This document shows positions 6,671 through 62,899 of a DNA stretch of 64,000 bases, one piece after another. How positions within the stretch are numbered: position 1 is the stretch's first letter; each line of letters begins with the position of its first letter. The position numbers were made by a program, and so were the translations under genes. This DNA is from Tetraselmis striata (Eukaryota > Chlorophyta > Chlorodendrophyceae > Chlorodendrales > Chlorodendraceae), in contig VCJN01002039.1 in assembly GCA_006384855.1 (NCBI GenBank), positions 186,001-250,000 of the forward strand, written 5' to 3'. The notes beneath the pieces were generated by a model. That model did no database searches. It saw nothing but the letters and a program-made list of their open reading frames with translations, and was not told where the DNA came from.

Positions 6671-9436
6671 TCAAAGTTGAGTCTGGTTTTGCCATTTATG
6701 AGCGAACGGAGAGAGCGGTGGATTGATGGAGAATGAAGGGGTAGCGCCAGGTCATGAAGGAGGCACCGGGAAGGCCACCGCTGCGGAGTCCTGTTGGACT
6801 TGGAAGTGGCGGAGGGGGGCGATGTGGCCAAAGAAGAACCATGCGCCAGGTAAAGGAAGAACGTTGGGGTCAATGTAGTCCAGAACGACGTCGGAGTCAG
6901 TGGCCCAGCCGCCTTGGTAGCGAATGTGGGACAATGGAACTCCGATGGCGTTATTGGCGGCAGACGCTGCTCCCTTGCGAAGGCTGTGTGCTGAGGTCCA
7001 GGAAGTGCCGGCGGGAGGGGCAGGATCGACAAGCGCAAGACGGACGGCTGCAGACAGCCAGTCCGACATTGTAGCGGCGGTCCAAGGTTTTGACTGCTCG
7101 CTTGGAGTGACCGCCTAGAAGTTTGTTTCACCCAAGGCTACATTACCAGGGGGACATACTGTACGTGGTCGATGAAGTGGTGCAGGAGACGTGCAACTCG
7201 GGGGTGTTTTAACACCGGAAGGAGAAGCACGCGCAGATCGTCGGGACCCCGCCGGCCAGCGCGACCCTTCTCGCGGTACACCTGCAGGGTAATGTTATAA
7301 TCGTCGACATGCACATCCCGCACTCGGCAAGAGACGCCAGTAAGTCCCCTGGCAAAAAACACGAAGTTGACAACCGAGGCCACGAGGGCTCGGAAGTTGT
7401 ACTGGTACTCTGTGGTGGGAGCAGACACAATCAACTCGGCTCGCTCGACGAAGCTGTAAGCTGCATCCGCAGGCAGAGGAACTCGCAAAGGGGCGGCTTC
7501 CAGACGACCACGCTGCCGCAGCATCAGCTCACGCCTAGATGCAGTAAGGTGTAAGCTGTCCTTGGCGATTGGGTCGAGGTTGTGCAGCTCGAAGAACGCG
7601 TTGATTGCAGACAGATAGGTTTGCAGTGATTTAGCTCCAATGTGCCCTCGCTCACCAATCCAAGCAACGTACCGGACGACAGTAGCAGTGGTCGCCTCCA
7701 GCGGGCTGATGTTCTCGGAGTCGTGCCAGAACTCCGCGAACTGAGACAGTTTGCCGGCGTAGCTCTTGAGTGTCTGAGCGGTGAGGGAGCTGGAGAGCAG
7801 GTCGAGCGTCCGCTGCCGTAACTCGTCTGAGCCGAAAGCATATTGCAGTCGAGATCGCAGTGAAGCAGCCCAGGGAGCGACAGCTTCGGGCTCGTCAATT
7901 ACGTAAGTGCGTCGTTTTACCGACAGAGTAGCAGGGGGGCGACTACCGCTTGCAAAGTACTCGGCAACAACGGTTAGGTTTCCGGCGGTTGGCCGGTAGT
8001 TGCTGGACGGGTTTGCAGTAGCACCAGGACGGGTTTGCGGGGCTAGGTTCAGGTAAGAGGGCCGCCCCGCGCGCCCTTCGCGCTCGTAGCGCCTGACACG
8101 CGCGTAACGTACACGCGCGAAGCTTGGTCGTTGCGAACCAGTTGTAACACGCAGTGTGACAACCGACGGACGCAGTGATGAAATGGTACGTGAGGCAGTT
8201 GGTTGAGCCAGCATGTGCAGGTGTGCGGATGGTTGAGCCGCACTCGGCTGTAGTTGTAAGAAGCGCCGCACCGAGGAAGGTCTTAATGAAGTCAGTAAGG
8301 TGGGGGGGGGGGGGTCAGGTCCTGACACATGGCGCTCATCCCGCCTTTGAGCTGCTAGGGTGCGCTTTGCGGCGGTCACCGAAAAGTGGCCTCGCAAGGC
8401 TCCAGCAGCTCCGACGAAAGGCGCCCCACACCGTCACTCGTACGTGCTCACCTTCGCGGCCATGCCCGCGTCCACCGCCACGTCCTCGTCCAAGCACGCC
8501 CGCGCCCTGCAGCAGCAGCTGCCGCTACCCGAGCAGTAGCGGTGGCTTTTGCGCCGCTGGCAACTGTCATCTCGAAGACGCAACGCTCGTAGTCCCTCAT
8601 GAGGTCCCCAAAAATCGCGGAACCCATATGCTCAGAAGCAGGCTGAAAGTGCTGAGCTCGCGGCACGTCCAGAACACCTTGGTCACCGTGCACATGCTTG
8701 ACCTCATTAAGCCTCCGCAGGAAAGCCAAACGAAATCGAAACGCCTTGTCGATGGCTTCGGCGTGGTTCCGAGCTCTCGCGAGGTAGGGGGTGAAGTCCT
8801 GACTTGCAGCAGGGACGTAGGGCAGCAGCTCGTCGAGAGCTACGAAAAGTGCGGCCATGTGGGCGCCGAAACACGACATCCAAAGATACTCCTCCTGGGC
8901 CGGCAAACGCCGGTCATCCTGCTTGAGGTACTCGTTCGTTAGGTCGGTGCTCAAGGGGAAGAGTCTAGGCACTCGGCTGACCGGTCGAACGGCCTCGTAG
9001 CCATACTCTGCTCGCTGCAGTAGCTATGGCACCGCGAGGTAATAATCATCCTCGTCACTCACCGATTTTGCTCCGACACGGCCGCTCTGGGCTAGCTCTA
9101 GAAAGTCGGGGCGCACTGCGGTTCCCCCGCTGCCTGTCGGTTGTCCCGCGATGCGCTGCCCGGAGCCGGAACCATGTGCCCCATCTCCATCAACAACGCG
9201 CTCACGAGCCGTCAATTGTGCCAACGCTACTGTAAGCTCGCGCAGTAATGTAGAATGGGCCTTCACGTCTGCGTGTGACGACTCGAGCGTCGGCTCAACG
9301 ACGAGTTCTTCTCCATCTTGCATGGTAACGCACGGGCGTACGGATGAGAATATCACACACGGGCGGTGAGCCGGGTGTGGTCTTGAACAACTTGGGGTGA
9401 CCTTGCTCGCAACAGGTTACGAGACAGTTTTACCAT

Positions 9437-12489: not shown

Positions 12490-13735
12490 AGAAGCATGGG
12501 CACGATGTGCGGGGTACATTGGCGGGGCGCAGGGTACAATGGCGGCCCGTTGGCGCCGACCAGCTGCGTGCGCAGGTCGCGGAGGCGACCGGCGGGGCAC
12601 GGGCTGCAGGGACTGCGGCCTGACGGCGCCGACCAGCCGCGTGCTTGGGCCGCGGAGGCGACCATGGCATAGGGTGCAGTGGCGGCCTCATGGCGCCGAT
12701 CAACTGCGTGCGCGCGGGCTGCATAAGCGACCAAGGTGAAGAGTACAGTGGCGGCCCGTTGGCGCCGACCAGCTGCGTGCGCATGTCATGGAGGCGACCG
12801 GGGCACATGGTGCAAGGACAGCCTGACGGCGCCGAGCAGTTGCGTGCTTGAGCTGCGGAGGCGACCAGGGCACATGGTGCAGTGACGGCCCGTTGGCGCC
12901 GACTAGCTGCTTTCGCGGGCTGCAGAAGTGGCCGAGGCGCATGGTGTAGTGGCGGCCCGTTGGCGCCGACCAGCTGCGTGCCCAAGTCGCGGAAGCTACC
13001 ATGGCACAGGGTGCAGTAGTGACGGCCCGTTGGCGCCGACCAACTACGTGCCCGAGGCTGCGATAGCAACCGAGGCGCAGCGTGCAGCGGCGGCCCGTGG
13101 GCGCCGACCAGTTGAGTACCCGGCCCGCAAAGGCGACCGGGAGACATGATGCAGTGGCTGCCCGTTGGCGCCGACCGGCTGCGTGCGCATGCGCCGCGGA
13201 AGCGACCGGGGCACATGGTGCAGTGACGTCCCATTGGCGCCGACCAACTGCGTACCCGGGCCGCGGAGGCGACCGGGATAGATGATGCAGTGGCGGACCG
13301 TTGGCGCCGACCGGCTGCGTGCGTAGGCCGCGGAGGCGGCTGGGGTACGCAAGGGTGGCCTGACGGCGCCGACCAGTTGCGTGATCGGGCCGCGGAAGAG
13401 GCCGCGCCATATTGTGCAGTGACGGCCAGTTGGTGCTGAGCGACATGTTGCGCGCGCATGCCGCCGAAGCGGCCGGGGCACAAGGTGCAGTGGCGGCCTG
13501 ATGGCGCCGACCAATCGCGTGTCCGGAGCTGCGAAGGCCATGGAATCACGACGTGCAGCAGCTGCGGCCTGTTGGCGCCGGCCAACCACGGCTTAGGCCG
13601 CGGAGGCAACCGGGAGGCACATGGCGCAGGGGCGGCCTGATGGCGCCGACCAGCGCAGGTGCCCGGAGGCGGAATATAGTGGTGGCCGGTTCGCGCCGAC
13701 AAGCTCTGCTTCTTGGGCTGCGAGCGATGGGCAAC
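12490..13735. repeat. Minisatellite, about 18 copies of a ~67-bp unit
   Basis: Units share a core close to cccgttggcgccgaccagct, then cgtgc, a cgcggaggcgacc segment and a ggcacatggtgcagtg joint. Spacing is 59-71 bp, most often 66-68. Divergence among units is considerable, so the array is not freshly amplified. Because 67 is not a multiple of three, each reading frame passes through the unit in rotating phase. Even so all three minus frames stay open for hundreds of codons (up to 435), repeating themes such as SWSAPTGRHC, QLVGANGPPLHH and AGRRQRAA. This reflects GC-rich, stop-poor units more than proven coding. Confidence 0.9.
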
Positions 13736-27531: not shown

Positions 27532-30500
27532 ATGGCGGAACGCGCCAGCCCACCGCAGCCGCGGGCGGCGTTCGCGGACGTCATGGATGTTGTGACGGAG
27601 GAGGACGAGGGTACAGGGGAGGGGCCGGACGCGGGAGCCGCCGTCGCTGGCCGGCCGGCGGCGCGGAGCGCGCTCAAGGGGCAGGACTCAGACGCGCGCG
27701 AGCGAGCACCCCGGCAGCGCGTGGTAATACGGACCAACTCTATTGGCAGTGCCGCGCCGAGCAAGGCCTCCTTCGCTGGCTCTGGCGCTTCCAGCGCTGC
27801 GATGGGCGCGATGCTGATGAACAACACTGGTCTCGGCCTCACCATCTTGCAGCGTGACGAGTGGTCCCAGAAGGTTTGACGGATGGCGACCCCCCCCCCC
27901 CCCCCGCTCTCCTCTCTCTTCCGAGAGCCTCTCCGGAAATCCGGCCCCGGGTGCCGGTCCTTCCCCCTCCTCTGCCCCTGCTTAAGCGTACCAAGCGTGG
28001 CTAAGAATCAGGTGTGGCCCACATGCCCGTCGAATAACCCCCCCCCCCCCCCCCCCCACGCGCGCTTCGACACGCGCCTCCTCCGTTTTGACCTGCAGGA
28101 GATAGACCAGCGGAACCAGGTGCTCCCGATGCTCCACCTGACGATGGGACAGATCGACGGCACCGTGAAGCCCAAGTTTTCGCACTTTTCGGCGGAGAGC
28201 TCGCCGGCAGAGAACATGGAGTCTTTCGGCCACCTGTTCTACGAGGTGCGAGACGAGGTCAAGGCTGCAGAGGCCATGCAGGTCGCCATGCATGCTGCGA
28301 CAGAGCGCTGACCCCACGTTGAACCCCGCTGCGCAGGAGCTGTTCGAGATGGAGCCGCAGCTGAAGAAGGACCTGTTCTCCGCGAAGCCCGCCCAGGTGC
28401 TGGCCATCAAGCTGGGCTTGATCCTGAGCGAGCTCATCCGGCTACTGGAGATAGAGTCGCCCCGCGCCCTGGGCGGCATAATATCCGAGATGGCGCTGCG
28501 CCACATTGAATACGGACTGATGAAGGAGCACGTGGCGCCGTTCCGCGACGTCATGGTCTCCTCGCTCAAGAAGGCTGTGACGGAGCGCGGCCACAAGTGG
28601 AAGCCCAAGACAACCAAAGCCTGGATCTGGGCCCTCACCGAAATTGCCAACCTGCTGGTGGAGGCTGTCAATCAAGGCCGCCCCAAAGTCCAGACGCTGA
28701 GCAAGTGCGCCACGGCTCCCCCCCCCCCCCCCCCCCCCTCCCTTGGCCCAATCTTCACTGTTCCCCCTCACATTTGACATCACAGTAATAGACTTGCAAA
28801 ACTCTGATTGTTGTGCGGCGAGTGTGTCCCCCCCCCCCTCCCTCTCTCCCCTTCCCCGGGTCCCCCATAAACACACCCTTGACCTCTTGAACTGGGGCCA
28901 AACATCGTGCAGGCGATTGACATGGGCACGGCGCGCCGCAGGTCGTGGCAGTTTATGTGTGAGAAGATGTATGAGGAGAAGCTGGCGCGCGCGGCGCGTG
29001 GGCGCAACGCATCCAGGCTGGCCAGCAAGGTGGGCTCCAAGCTAAAGAGCCAGACAGATGCGAGCCTTGCTGGCATTGCCGAGGAGAGCAGTGATGGTGA
29101 GGAGGTACAGGAGCTGGCAGAGAAGGAGTCCAGCGGGCTCACGATGGCTGCCATGGCTGCTGCATTCAAGGCCGGCGGGGTCACCGCTGTCAAAGCGCTG
29201 ATAGCTGGCAGCAAGGAGGACCGCAAGGACACCAGCGGCAACTTCACCCTGTGGCAGAAGAAGCAGGCGATGCTGAGCCCAGATTACCTGGAGGGCCGGC
29301 TCGCGGTGGGGCAGGCCTTCTTGGATGTTTTTGCAGCGCGCAATGCGTGGGCGGTCAAGGACTTTGACTTTGGGCTCAGCCCCACGCATGCGGCAAAGAT
29401 GGGCGAGGCGCTGGAGCTCATCGTCAACAGCGCCACCAAGCCGCAGATTCTGCAGCACAAGCTGCGCGTACTGTCGCTGGGCCACGTGCAGATGGGCATC
29501 AAGCCCGAGTTCTTCCCCCACTTTGGCACGGCGTTGTTTGCCTTTCTCGAGCAGGTGGCCGCCCCGCCATCTGACTGCCGTCCATGTCACTCAGCAACGG
29601 TGGTATGCCGGTTAGGCGATGTGAGTTGCTGGCGCGCCCCTGGCTGTCACCGCCTGTGCCTCACCCTCTGATTGCCCTGCGCAGGTGCTGGGGAACTACA
29701 TGATGTGGGACAATCAGACAGAGGAGGCATGGAAGTGGATGTGGGACATTGTCAACGCGGCCTTCACCCGCCACATGATCTCGGCGGCGCAGCTGCTGTC
29801 CACGGTTGGGCAGTCGTGGGAGCACATTGAGACTAACTGCGACATCAACGAAATCAGCGATGCCTTTTTCGAACACCTCTTTCGGCTGGTGCCGGCGCTG
29901 CAGGAGTTCTTCACCAAGCCCAAGAAGATGCAGCGCGTGATGTTTATCAAGGCGATGGACCTGATTGTACGCAGCGTGGCGGACACCAAGGTGCTGGAGG
30001 TTGACCTCAAGGCGATCGCGATGCGCCACATTAAGTATGACATTCGCGCAGAGCATCTGGACGTGTTTGGCCAGGTGCTGCTTCAGGCGCTGGCAAACGC
30101 CGCCGGCACCGACAACTGGGATGAGGAGATCGAGGGTAGCTGGGCAGACATTTACGGCCACATTGCCGCCATCTTTGGGCACGTCATCTCCACCGGCCGC
30201 AATCTCGTGTCCAAGGCGCTCGCCACCAACAGCTCTGACGAGCTTCGCCGCGCGCTGCAGATCACCCCACGCAAGCGCCGCATCGTCAGCGCGCTCGAGA
30301 TTGACGTGGACGACAGCGTGGTGTCGCCAATCGTGTGGACCATCACCGAGGGGCAGCTGCACCTGACGGACGTGCTCCTCAAGGACGTCCTCACCATCCG
30401 CGGGGACCGTGAGCACTACTACTACGGCCGCAGCCTGCTGTGGGCCAAGCATCCCTGGATCTGCCACCTGCTGGTGGAAAAGGCGCCCAAGCTGCTGCCC

Positions 30501-32555
30501 ACCTTTCTGGACGGGCACCTCTGGATCAGCCGTCACAGCGAGGAGGGCTTCCGCCGCGTGAACTACTACGTGAAGGAGCTCTACGGGGATCCCTACGTGC
30601 CTGGAAACTGGAACACCTACAACACGCCGCTCGGCCTGCTCGTCTCGCGGCTGCCGGCGAGCGAGGTTGCCGTGTTTGCGCACCCATGCATCCAGTTTGT
30701 GGTGGACCTCAAGTGGGAGCAGTTTGGCAGGCGGGACTTTGGGTTTCTGCAGGCGCTCAACCTGCTCAACTTGGCGCTTGTCACCACATACATGCAGATC
30801 GGCAACCATTACCCCTATGCCAGCTTTGTGCTCTCCCTCCTGCAGCTGGTCACCGCCAGCGGGAAGATCCTGTGGTTCATGCGGAAGAGCTGGCAGCAGC
30901 TGGCAAACGGCTTTGGGCACCGGTACCGCCTGGCGGGCCTGAGCGTAACGGTGCCCTTTGTGCTGCATGATGTGTTCACCCTCATCAGCCTGATAACGTC
31001 CGTCCTGCTGCTGCTGCTGTTCTGGAAGAGCTGGACGGCTAACCCCTTCCGCTGGCATAGCGCCCTGGACCCCAGCAAGGATCTTGTCAGCCAGGACCCC
31101 AACTGGTTCATCAACCACCATGACCCGCACACGCTGCGTGACTGGGCCATGGTCGCGGCGTTTGCGACCGGGCTGCTGTGGATCCAGATGAGCGAGTGCT
31201 TCAAGATGTCCAACCGCCTGAGCGCGCTCATCTTTGCCATCATGGCGGTGCTGAAGGAGGTGATGCGCTTCATCCTGGTGCTCGCGGTCTGGGGCATCGG
31301 CTTCAGCATCATGCTGTACTGGCTCTTTGTGGCGCACAACCTGCGCGAGGGAGAGGACATCCACGAGGCGCTCGGCGTTGACCTGCAGCTCACGGAGCGC
31401 AGCGACGTGGGCGATGTTGTCTACTGGGTCGTAATGTCGTGCCTGGGCATCACCGGCATCGACGCCATGATGCAGGCGGGCACGCTGACCCGCGTCGTCT
31501 ACGCGCTCTGCGTGCTGACCACCGTCGTGGTGCTGCTCAACCTGCTGGTGTCCACGATGGTGTCCACGTACGACATCCTGCAGATGAGCTTCCACGAGCT
31601 GGCGGTGCAGACACGCGCGCAGCTGGTCATCCGGGCCGAGGAGGGCTGCTCCATGAAGCGGCGCGCCAAGTACTTCAACGCGTGCAGGTTTGGCGAGAAG
31701 GTCGACTTTGACGACGGTGACGACGGCCCCAGCGGCGGCATCCAGCGCCTCGTGCCTGCCTCGGAGCGCCGACACCCCGCGTACCGCGTGCTTGACCCAA
31801 TCGAGCGCTACGCGGGTGACTGCAGCCCCGACACACCTTTCGGCAAAGACGACATGATCTCCAGCGCCACCACCACCGAGGACCTGCTGGGTGTTGGCAC
31901 CAAGCACACCGTGAACCACCAGGCGCTGCTGCGCATCAGCGAGGAGGTGGGCCGCCTCTCCACGGAGCTCTTCCTCATGAAGAACGCCACGAGAGACGAC
32001 GACAGCACGAGCGTCACTGGCTCGCAGATCGATCCGGAGGAGAAGGCTTCCAGTGCCGGAAACGGCGGCGGCAGCGCTGGCAAGATGGCCAGCGCGGACG
32101 GCGTCTTTGGGGGCGGTGGCGAGGAGACCAAGTACGCATCCTCCACGGGCCTGCTCGCCGGGGCGGAGGAGGCGGTGAAGGACCCGCTGGCCAACCTGCG
32201 CGAGGTGGCCCACGAGGAGCTCGCGGCGCATGGAGACCTGACCTCCCTGTGGCTTGTAGTCGACGGCATCGTACGCGACGTGACTAGCTTGCTTGGCTAC
32301 CACCCCGGCGGGAAGAAGGTGCTGCTGGATGCGCATGGCAAGGACGCCTCGGAGCTCTTCCACAGCAGTCACATTGGCCCCTCATTCACCATCGCCTCCG
32401 CGATGTGGAAGGCCATGCCGCCCATCGGGCGCATGCAGGCCCTCGAGGCCGCCATGAACCTGCCGGGCGCGGTGCCCCAGCCGGCAGCTGCCACCCAGCA
32501 CGACGGCATGACCATGTACTCCCCGCACGACCTCGACCTCGACCTCGACGTGTGA
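27532..32555 (+). CDS. Triple globin - TRP-like ion channel - cytochrome b5 fusion
   Basis: Exons: 27532-27873, 28099-28245, 28337 to about 28700 (donor not settled), 28913-29554, 29685-32555; roughly 1455 residues. After a disordered N-terminus come three globin modules. Module 1 has FGHLFYEELFEMEPQLK across an exon junction, with proximal-His helix MALRHIEYGLMKEHV. Module 2 has LSLGHVQMGIKPEFFPHFG. Module 3 has ISDAFFEHLFRLVPALQEFF and IAMRHIKYDIRAEHLDVFG. Each keeps the F8-type His. Next is an ankyrin-channel-like linker (HPCIQFVVDLKWEQFG), then six membrane helices with a pore loop (VVYWVVMSCLGITGID) and S6 (VVVLLNLLVSTMVSTYD). The S4 helix lacks regular Arg/Lys, so voltage gating is unlikely. 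Near the C-terminus a cytochrome b5 domain shows HPGG (32301) and a second His in FHSSHIG. Inferred role: a heme-controlled cation channel sensing O2, NO or redox. The antisense strand is also largely open, a composition effect. Confidence 0.9.
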
Positions 32556-33012: not shown

Positions 33013-36960
<3,948 letters not shown>

Positions 36961-61706: not shown

Positions 61707-62899
61707 TTATTGCAGGCCGGGCTCGATGTCGGGCACGTCCTTGTGGTGGAAGAACGCGGCGCCGACGACGACGTACACGAGGATGAGCGTGAGCCCCTTG
61801 AGCCAGTTGCTCTGGCCATCCTGCACAAAGAGGCACACGGTAACGACCGAGCCGAAGAGCGTGACGGTCTCAAAGGTGTGCAGGTTGAGGTCAAGGTCGA
61901 TCCCCATTGCCCATGCGGTGATCACGGAGAGCGGGATGACAAGGACGCTGATCTGCGTGGAGGAGCCAATGGCGACGCCCAGGCTGATGTCCATCTTGTT
62001 CTTCATGGCGAACATTACGGCGCTGGCATGCTCCGCGGCGTTGCCCACGATGGGCAGCAGGATGGTGGAGATGAAGGCGACCGGCAGCTTGAGCTGCTCC
62101 GCAGCGCCCTCGATGGTGTTGACCACGTAGTCGCTGAGGATGGTGACAAAGAGCGTGAGGATGGCCAGCCAGGCGATGGCACCCCAGAAGCCTAGTACCG
62201 CCTCCTCCTCCTCCTCCTGGCCGTCGGCGCCCTCCTGGCCGGGCTCGGCCTCCGACTCGTACAGCTCCCGGTGGCTGACAAGCTGGAAGTAGAGGTAGGC
62301 GCCGTACATGCCCAGCAGCACGACGCTGCAGAAGCGGCTGAGGCTGACGTCGTCGGTTGTGCCGTCCAGCTCGCTGTGCGTGGCGTGTAGCACGTTGGGC
62401 AGCATCAGCGTCAGCACGCCCAGCATGAGCAGCCCTGCGCTCGCGATGACGCCCTCCTTGGCAAAGCGCTGGATCTTGAAGCGCAGCCCGCCAAAGAAGA
62501 AGGCGCAGCCGAGCACCAGCAGCATGTTGCTCAGGATGCTGCCCAGCAGCGACAGCTGCACGACGCGCAGCAGCCCCTCGCGCAGTGCGTACATCGCGAC
62601 CACCATCTCCGTGATGTTGCCGAAGCTCGCATTGAGCAGGCCGCCGATTGTGGGGTTCGTGTACAGGGCCATCTGCTCCGTCGCGTACCCTAGGCGCTCC
62701 GCCAGCGGGCACAGCCCAATGAGCGAGAACAGAAAGGTCCAGCCGTCGTCCCAGCCCAGCCCGTTGGACAACATCGCCAGCAGGATGCTCGGCAGCAGCA
62801 GGTTCAGCTTCGTGGACAGCAGCATCTCCTGCGGGGAATGGCGCACATCCGTTGCCCACGCTCAGAATACGCGCCTACAACGGAGGGTATGTGGGAGGT

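Follow-up and report, generated by a model that had tools for sequence, protein, structure and literature searches.

Globin sensors joined to a signalling output are known from bacteria, where the globin-coupled sensors (HemAT and others) carry methyl-accepting, cyclase, kinase or similar domains; to our knowledge no channel is among these outputs. In TRPM2-type chanzymes, the domain added to a TRP channel is an ADP-ribose-related enzyme domain and not a haem protein. Here we describe a gene of the green alga Tetraselmis striata, found in a stretch of 64,000 nucleotides (contig VCJN01002039.1, positions 186,001 to 250,000, forward strand; hereafter the window), whose protein joins these two known kinds, globin sensors and TRP channels, in a single chain comprising three globin modules, an ankyrin-like helical region (the skirt), a six-helix channel of predicted TRPV-like fold and a C-terminal cytochrome b5 domain. 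In our favoured reading, towards which the evidence tips slightly, the protein is a TRPV-type cation channel whose gating follows the ligand or redox state of the haem in its globins, b5 serving as a tethered electron donor.

Like the bacterial sensors, the window protein joins a globin sensor to a signalling output, and as that output (channel plus b5) is none of those listed above it falls outside their class. Compared to TRPV channels (Nanchung/Inactive, TRPV1–6), to which the VIA alignments of its relative P0007 show 12–17% identity, it adds globins before a short ankyrin-like region and b5 after the channel. The PDB entry 6pw4 ("TRP-like ion channel"), which we take to be Chlamydomonas reinhardtii TRP1, is likewise a green-algal TRP and matches the channel profile at 1.3e-6, the match covering only the channel; we know of no globin or b5 part in that protein. 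TRPM2-type chanzymes, going by the titles of their PDB entries, resemble the window protein in that a TRP channel is fused to an additional functional domain. The nearest described proteins that we found are the chimeric globins of Guillardia theta, EKX33177.1 (1060 amino acids) and EKX39126.1 (1497 amino acids), reported to contain six globin domains between them along with a putative cytochrome b5, and resembling the window protein in combining three globins and a putative b5 in one large protist protein. Comparing by description, the accessible portions of that report (PMC4101818) place b5 at the N-terminus and mention no channel, whereas the b5 of the window protein is C-terminal and accompanied by a channel; neither accession was recognised among the 21 proteins returned by our searches (see below). 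The membrane-bound, redox-active globin of C. elegans, as described in the accessible part of its report, offers a functional analogy only (PMC3520999), and the Symbiodinium haemoglobins, in the portions of the paper at hand, measure 174 to 247 residues and are without transmembrane parts (PMC3631397). Among the entries listed in searches of open-licence PubMed Central texts, outside which subscription papers and reviews of protist globins lie, there was no report of a protein joining a globin to a channel.

The gene spans positions 27532–32555 of the window on the forward strand, as do all of its features given here, with its ATG at 27532 and its TGA ending at 32555. A preliminary description of this DNA had placed one gene, encoding three globins, a TRP-like channel and b5, at exactly these bases. 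Splicing of five exons, with a GT donor and an AG acceptor at every intron, yields a stop-free frame of 1446 codons. Exon 1 (27532–27873; residues 1–114) encodes a leader without domain match and ends at a GT donor; exon 2 (28099–28245; residues 115–163; AG and GT borders) the N-terminal part of globin 1; exon 3 (28337–28704; residues 164–285 plus two bases) the bulk of globin 1; exon 4 (28942–29554; the last base of codon 286, then residues 287–490) a variable linker followed by globin 2; and exon 5 (29685–32555; residues 491–1446) the end of globin 2, globin 3, the skirt, the channel, a tether, cytochrome b5 and the stop. Similarity blocks shared with a paralogue on contig C831 stop at protein positions ~114, 163, 286 and 491, which are the exon ends of the window gene, and so lend independent support to the junctions of exons 1–4; the exon 2 block (114–163) is 58% identical. 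Exon 1 (residues 1–114) has neither a Pfam match nor a similarity block in the four paralogues examined, and its start codon, lacking independent support for that reason, is inferred from the open frame.

Relatives were collected in three protein searches (15, 17 and 17 hits), together giving 21 different proteins; each search scored the 7,990–7,996 candidates with most shared words, so that the taxonomic range reported here is a lower bound. The 21 are not independent, as P0009 closely resembles P0012, and P0001 hardly differs from the window protein. The whole chain of three globins, channel and b5 is carried by two Tetraselmis gene models and by one Tetraselmis astigmatica protein (P0005; label MMETSP0804, taxonomy identifier 1074897), the latter 47% identical across the whole query region. 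MMETSP is a transcriptome project, and on that basis the complete chain lies on one transcript in a close relative; the separate transcripts for globin and channel parts that the preliminary description had kept in view did not appear. That separate globin, channel and b5 genes were wrongly joined during assembly or gene modelling is thus hardly credible. No Tetstr1 gene model of the window gene itself is among the 21 proteins, as such an artefact might lead one to expect, but globin 3, channel and b5 all lie within the single open frame of exon 5, which contradicts a false join there, and the database protein P0001 (951 residues) equals window residues 496–1446 bar three substitutions (99.7% identity). 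With the globin–channel part present in four more paralogue groups of the genome and the whole chain in relatives, an artefactual or chance fusion was rejected.

The spliced protein matches all three expected Pfam families above their curated cut-offs: Globin with 95 bits (5.8e-27) in three stretches (counted at E-values up to 10), Ion_trans with 36.8 bits (3.2e-9; cut-off 25; 35.7 bits on exon 5) and Cyt-b5 with 46.9 bits (2.8e-12; 47.5 bits on exon 5). Taken alone, the globin 1 and globin 2 exons score 24.9 and 24.5 bits, respectively, against a Globin cut-off of 22, the globin 1 stretch covering 28385–28651 within exon 3. Globin 3 (29781–30182, exon 5) is the strongest module, its 14-sequence profile reaching PDB 3wfw at 3.1e-15 (best 60 of 336 matches), and is similar in sequence and fold to the globin domains of flavohaemoglobins and to Hell's Gate globin I. 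Relatives of Hell's Gate globin I are also what the globin 1 profile picks up (3wfw, 2.3e-9), and they are nearest in the PDB to globins 1 and 3 alike; the best 60 of 69 matches to the globin 2 profile are all globins, albeit weakly matched (best 3.4e-4). In profile–profile comparison, globin 3 pairs with globin 1 at a probability of 98.6 and with globin 2 at 96.8, and globins 1 and 2 pair with each other at 44.8. A globin fold, supposed earlier for all three modules, is predicted for globin 3 by structure comparison of models, whereas for globins 1 and 2 the support comes from profiles: globin 1 is in no model, and in the second VIA comparison, made with relative P0007, globin 2 and b5 fall outside the well-tested range.

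To locate the presumed haem ligands, the window protein was aligned with 19 relatives (P0001–P0019, leaving out the later-found P0020 and P0021), and E7, CD1 and F8 positions were assigned by alignment and by globin numbering. The motifs RHIEYG, GHVQMG and RHIKYD, noted earlier as F8-type, are present and place proximal-type histidines at residues 219 (28502–28504), 467 (29483–29485) and 605 (30027–30029). His605 of globin 3 is kept, together with the CD1 Phe (Phe566), in 20 of 20 aligned sequences, including P0017–P0019 at 20–25% identity, and the E7-type Gln of the same module in 15 of 20. His219 is found in all six aligned sequences that contain globin 1 (window, P0003, P0004, P0005, P0017 and P0019; two further rows with letters in this column, A and M, are unrelated N-termini and were left out of the count), and His467 in all six green sequences with globin 2 (window and P0003–P0007; the letters of P0009 and P0010, again unrelated N-termini, were left out). 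CD1 Phe aligns at 177 in globin 1 and at 427/429 in globin 2, in which His435, a distal-type residue upstream of His467, is likely of E7 type. This pattern suggests that the globins bind haem.

The channel, comprising helices S1–S6 and a helix continuing past S6, occupies 30684–31643 and is recognised by Ion_trans, by a TRP profile and by Foldseek, in agreement with the six-helix TRP-like channel first described. It is preceded, at 30195–30680, by an ankyrin-like region of helical pairs with strands and a pre-S1 motif (VDLKWEQFGRRDF), seen as paired helices in the models, and between S5 and S6 a pore helix and filter-like loop (SCLGITGIDA) is tentatively placed at 31407–31466, the pore loop being predicted at low confidence. 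Searched against the PDB, the channel profile returns TRP channels for each of its best 60 of 137 matches, and by profile the channel is of TRP type. Foldseek matches the P0007 model to TRPV3 (2.1e-8), and the VIA alignments of P0007 to TRPV chains start in the ankyrin-like region; in the predicted models this region, the pre-S1 linker and the post-S6 helix align with TRPV structures, and the pre-S1 part weakly matches that of TRPV Inactive (18.1 bits). No ankyrin family is matched by Pfam in the window protein at E-values up to 10, and we therefore call the channel TRPV-like in predicted fold and do not class it as TRPV; this assignment, and the ankyrin-like region before S1, amend the preliminary description. 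Globins took up the first VIA table, which is hardly informative about the channel, and absence from the VIA tables excludes no fold or TRP subfamily. The polycystin family was considered and rejected (PKD_channel 16 bits, below its cut-off of 22.4). The protein would assemble as a tetramer, which would then hold up to 16 haems, and would presumably pass cations.

The C-terminal cytochrome b5 domain (32211–32375) is identified by Pfam and by a Foldseek match to 3ner_A (template modelling score, normalised to the target, 0.83), and its two axial-ligand-type histidines, His1363 of the HPGG motif (32301–32303) and His1386 (32370–32372), are present in 16 of the 16 aligned sequences that have the domain. 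It is preceded by a tether (31818–32192) that differs in length among relatives and is mostly disordered, with a predicted local distance difference test score (pLDDT) below 50 at exon-5 residues 729–748 and 767–833.

Spacing along the chain separates its parts into two kinds. The globin 3 His precedes the first skirt motif by 99 residues in 18 of the 22 sequences and by 95 in another three (the distance is unmeasurable in P0021), and globin 2 is followed by globin 3 at 138 residues in five of six measurable sequences; in P0006 the distance is 249 and includes an insertion that has the look of intron read-through. Globins 1 and 2, on the other hand, are 243–293 residues apart (n = 4), and channel and b5 178–369 (n = 16). 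In the P0007 model globins 2 and 3 are linked by a single 41-residue helix, with 3 residues between the last globin helix and the skirt. Globins 2 and 3 and the skirt thus form a fixed frame, from which globin 1 and b5 are set off by variable tethers, and it is chiefly this frame that leads us, on anatomical grounds, to favour a mechanism in which globin 3 would gate the pore mechanically and b5 would act as a mobile donor.

The cytosolic sensor would be a rigid globin stack standing upon the ankyrin-like skirt of a TRPV-type channel. Binding of O2, NO or CO, or a change in haem oxidation, in globin 3 (in green algae also in globin 2) would shift the F and H helices of the globin, and this shift would travel via the fixed-length joint to the skirt and the pre-S1/TRP-helix region and so alter pore opening. 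Globin 1 and cytochrome b5 would hang from their variable-length tethers. With electrons from a cytosolic b5 reductase, b5 would convert oxidised globin haem back to its ferrous form, which binds ligand, and thereby reset or tune the sensor. Both the pattern of spacing and the conservation of the presumed haem ligands are in keeping with such ligand or redox gating and re-reduction by b5, and cytochrome b5 is a documented reductant of haemoglobin and cytoglobin (PMC3820574). The fixed globin–skirt spacing makes the gating question directly testable.

An electron donor carried on the same chain also suits another reading, that of a channel-enzyme in which the globins, re-reduced by b5, work at the membrane mainly as a haem enzyme, an NO dioxygenase or another, the channel being gated otherwise or by the reaction product. 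An on-board donor fits turnover better than it fits sensing, and the likeness of globin 3 to Hell's Gate globin I and to flavohaemoglobin globin domains points the same way. Cytochrome b5 reduces red-cell haemoglobin and, in vitro, supports the NO dioxygenase activity of cytoglobin (PMC3820574, in the portion consulted), and the PDB titles cited above indicate that TRP channels can bear enzyme domains. We nevertheless regard a channel-enzyme as rather unlikely: P0017–P0019 retain globin and channel without b5, so that an internal donor is unnecessary, the fixed spacing of globin and skirt resembles mechanical coupling, and the E7-type Gln of globin 3 is not universally kept.

Several observations weigh against gating of a TRPV-type pore by globin haem with b5 as donor. 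The model of the window protein is of modest confidence (pLDDT 64.5; predicted template modelling score 0.48), the pore helix is of low confidence in both models (pLDDT partly below 50 in the window protein and about 50–67 in P0007), the Foldseek superpositions are loose (root-mean-square deviation 12–15 Å for the top rows), and neither model certifies the packing between domains. The acid in the filter loop varies among relatives, and no Ca2+ selectivity is therefore assigned. A single-sequence PDB search with exon 5 gave globins and b5 and no TRP chain among its best 60 of 104 matches, and across the relatives Ion_trans is below cut-off in P0003, P0004, P0006 and P0017 and undetected in P0005, P0018 and P0019. 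Cytochrome b5 is missing from four of the 20 aligned sequences (P0011 and P0017–P0019) and was not found beside the C1395 paralogue in the stretch C1395:65000–73500, which places it outside the core as a non-essential part. The anatomy first described (three globins, a TRP-like channel and b5 in one gene) stands, with b5, absent from P0017–P0019, outside the core.

The middle globin raises a further difficulty. Its proximal His is absent in P0017, P0018 and P0019, whose middle module pairs with globin 3 at a probability of 0.9 and does not register as a globin, and by eye the C1395 paralogue has Tyr at this position. These absences would agree with globins that are a structural stand-in for ankyrin repeats, largely without haem function, in a channel that responds, as other TRP channels do, to force, temperature, lipid or Ca2+; in P0007 the globins do immediately precede the stretch aligned with TRPV ankyrin regions. 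Such a role is decidedly unlikely in view of the universal retention of the globin 3 proximal His and CD1 Phe, even in the most distant sequences, and of the globin 1 proximal His wherever that module is aligned.

The more distant relatives P0017 (Symbiodinium natans), P0018 and P0019 align over globin 3, skirt and channel, and their channel assignment comes from that alignment, P0017 scoring 17.6 bits for Ion_trans (below cut-off) and P0019 having TRPV2 as its best PDB match (0.019); the globin match of P0018 is below cut-off. A query of skirt plus channel returned 17 proteins, 16 with a precomputed globin domain and the 17th being P0018, so that no example of this channel type lacking a globin-type module came up within this limited search. 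In alignment A1 (window exon 5 and P0001–P0015, 16 members), Pfam at E-values up to 1 finds Globin in 16, Cyt-b5 in 15 and Ion_trans in 15. Evenly poised, in our estimation, is the broader claim that globin-gated ion channels are met here for the first time, as a family common to green algae and dinoflagellates. In its members a TRPV-type pore would be opened or closed directly by the binding of gas or the oxidation of haem, and those of green algae would carry in addition a b5 to re-reduce the sensor, making ion flow a measure of both gas level and cellular electron supply. If gating by globin haem is true, this would be a new kind of channel, with haem sensing wired directly into the pore without a second messenger. 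The TRP superfamily would then gain a haem-protein sensor and the globin sensors a channel output, and there would be a direct handle on O2 and NO sensing by motile algae and on redox-to-ion signalling in single cells, as well as a possible genetically encoded gas- or redox-gated channel.

Viral and prokaryotic relatives were sought with two short peptide patterns, which gave 13 matches in viral_contigs and 15 in genome_contigs, none confirmed. There was no viral fold match to P0007 at an E-value of 0.001 or better and no near-identical plasmid match. PF23317 is in the database's precomputed Pfam list for P0001, P0002, P0007, P0008, P0010 and P0017 and absent from our own Pfam scans.

In the T. 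striata genome (224,097,584 bases, 2,903 contigs) five paralogue groups occur at seven places: the window; C536 and C1240; C11 and C605; C831; and C1395. The C536 and C1240 copies, 97.7–98.2% identical in DNA, are probably alleles or recent copies. The gene models P0003 and P0004 (jgi Tetstr1, a label that presumably denotes Tetraselmis striata) have their best blocks at C1240 (99.75% over 799 residues) and C11 (100% over 578), respectively, with lower identity in the remaining blocks, where linkers align badly. Closest to the window protein by identity is the C831 paralogue (C831:70500–79500; 65% over 379 residues), which has three globins, channel and b5; a stop inside its tether alignment may be an intron. 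Window and C831 codons differ at positions 1, 2 and 3 by 103, 81 and 138 over 378 codons, a divergence too great for any claim on the ratio of nonsynonymous to synonymous substitution. The C1395 paralogue (C1395:72500–81500) is a divergent copy. Further globin matches on C1817, C564 and C238, contigs without a match to window exon 5, are probably separate globin genes.

A 906-residue antisense open frame over exon 5 (29661–32381, reverse strand) was rejected as a gene. Its 899-residue part inside the exon was reached by 17 of 200 synonymous-codon shuffles, third-position guanine-plus-cytosine (GC) content is 88%, and Pfam finds nothing in the frame at E-values up to 0.001; it looks like a by-product of the high third-position GC. 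Just downstream of the gene, on the opposite strand, an open frame at 34400–34807 resembles a piece of a class-III aminotransferase (Aminotran_3, 26 bits, below the cut-off of 30.5). Elsewhere in the window, 61710–62861 (reverse strand) encodes a sodium/calcium exchanger family protein (Na_Ca_ex, 9.3e-42). An open frame at 7141–8433 (reverse strand) with a phage-integrase SAM-like N-terminal domain (4e-8) is perhaps a tyrosine-recombinase mobile element, and a degenerate tandem repeat with a period of ~67/136/205 bases extends over 12526–13513, within a long open frame that matches no Pfam family at E-values up to 0.001.

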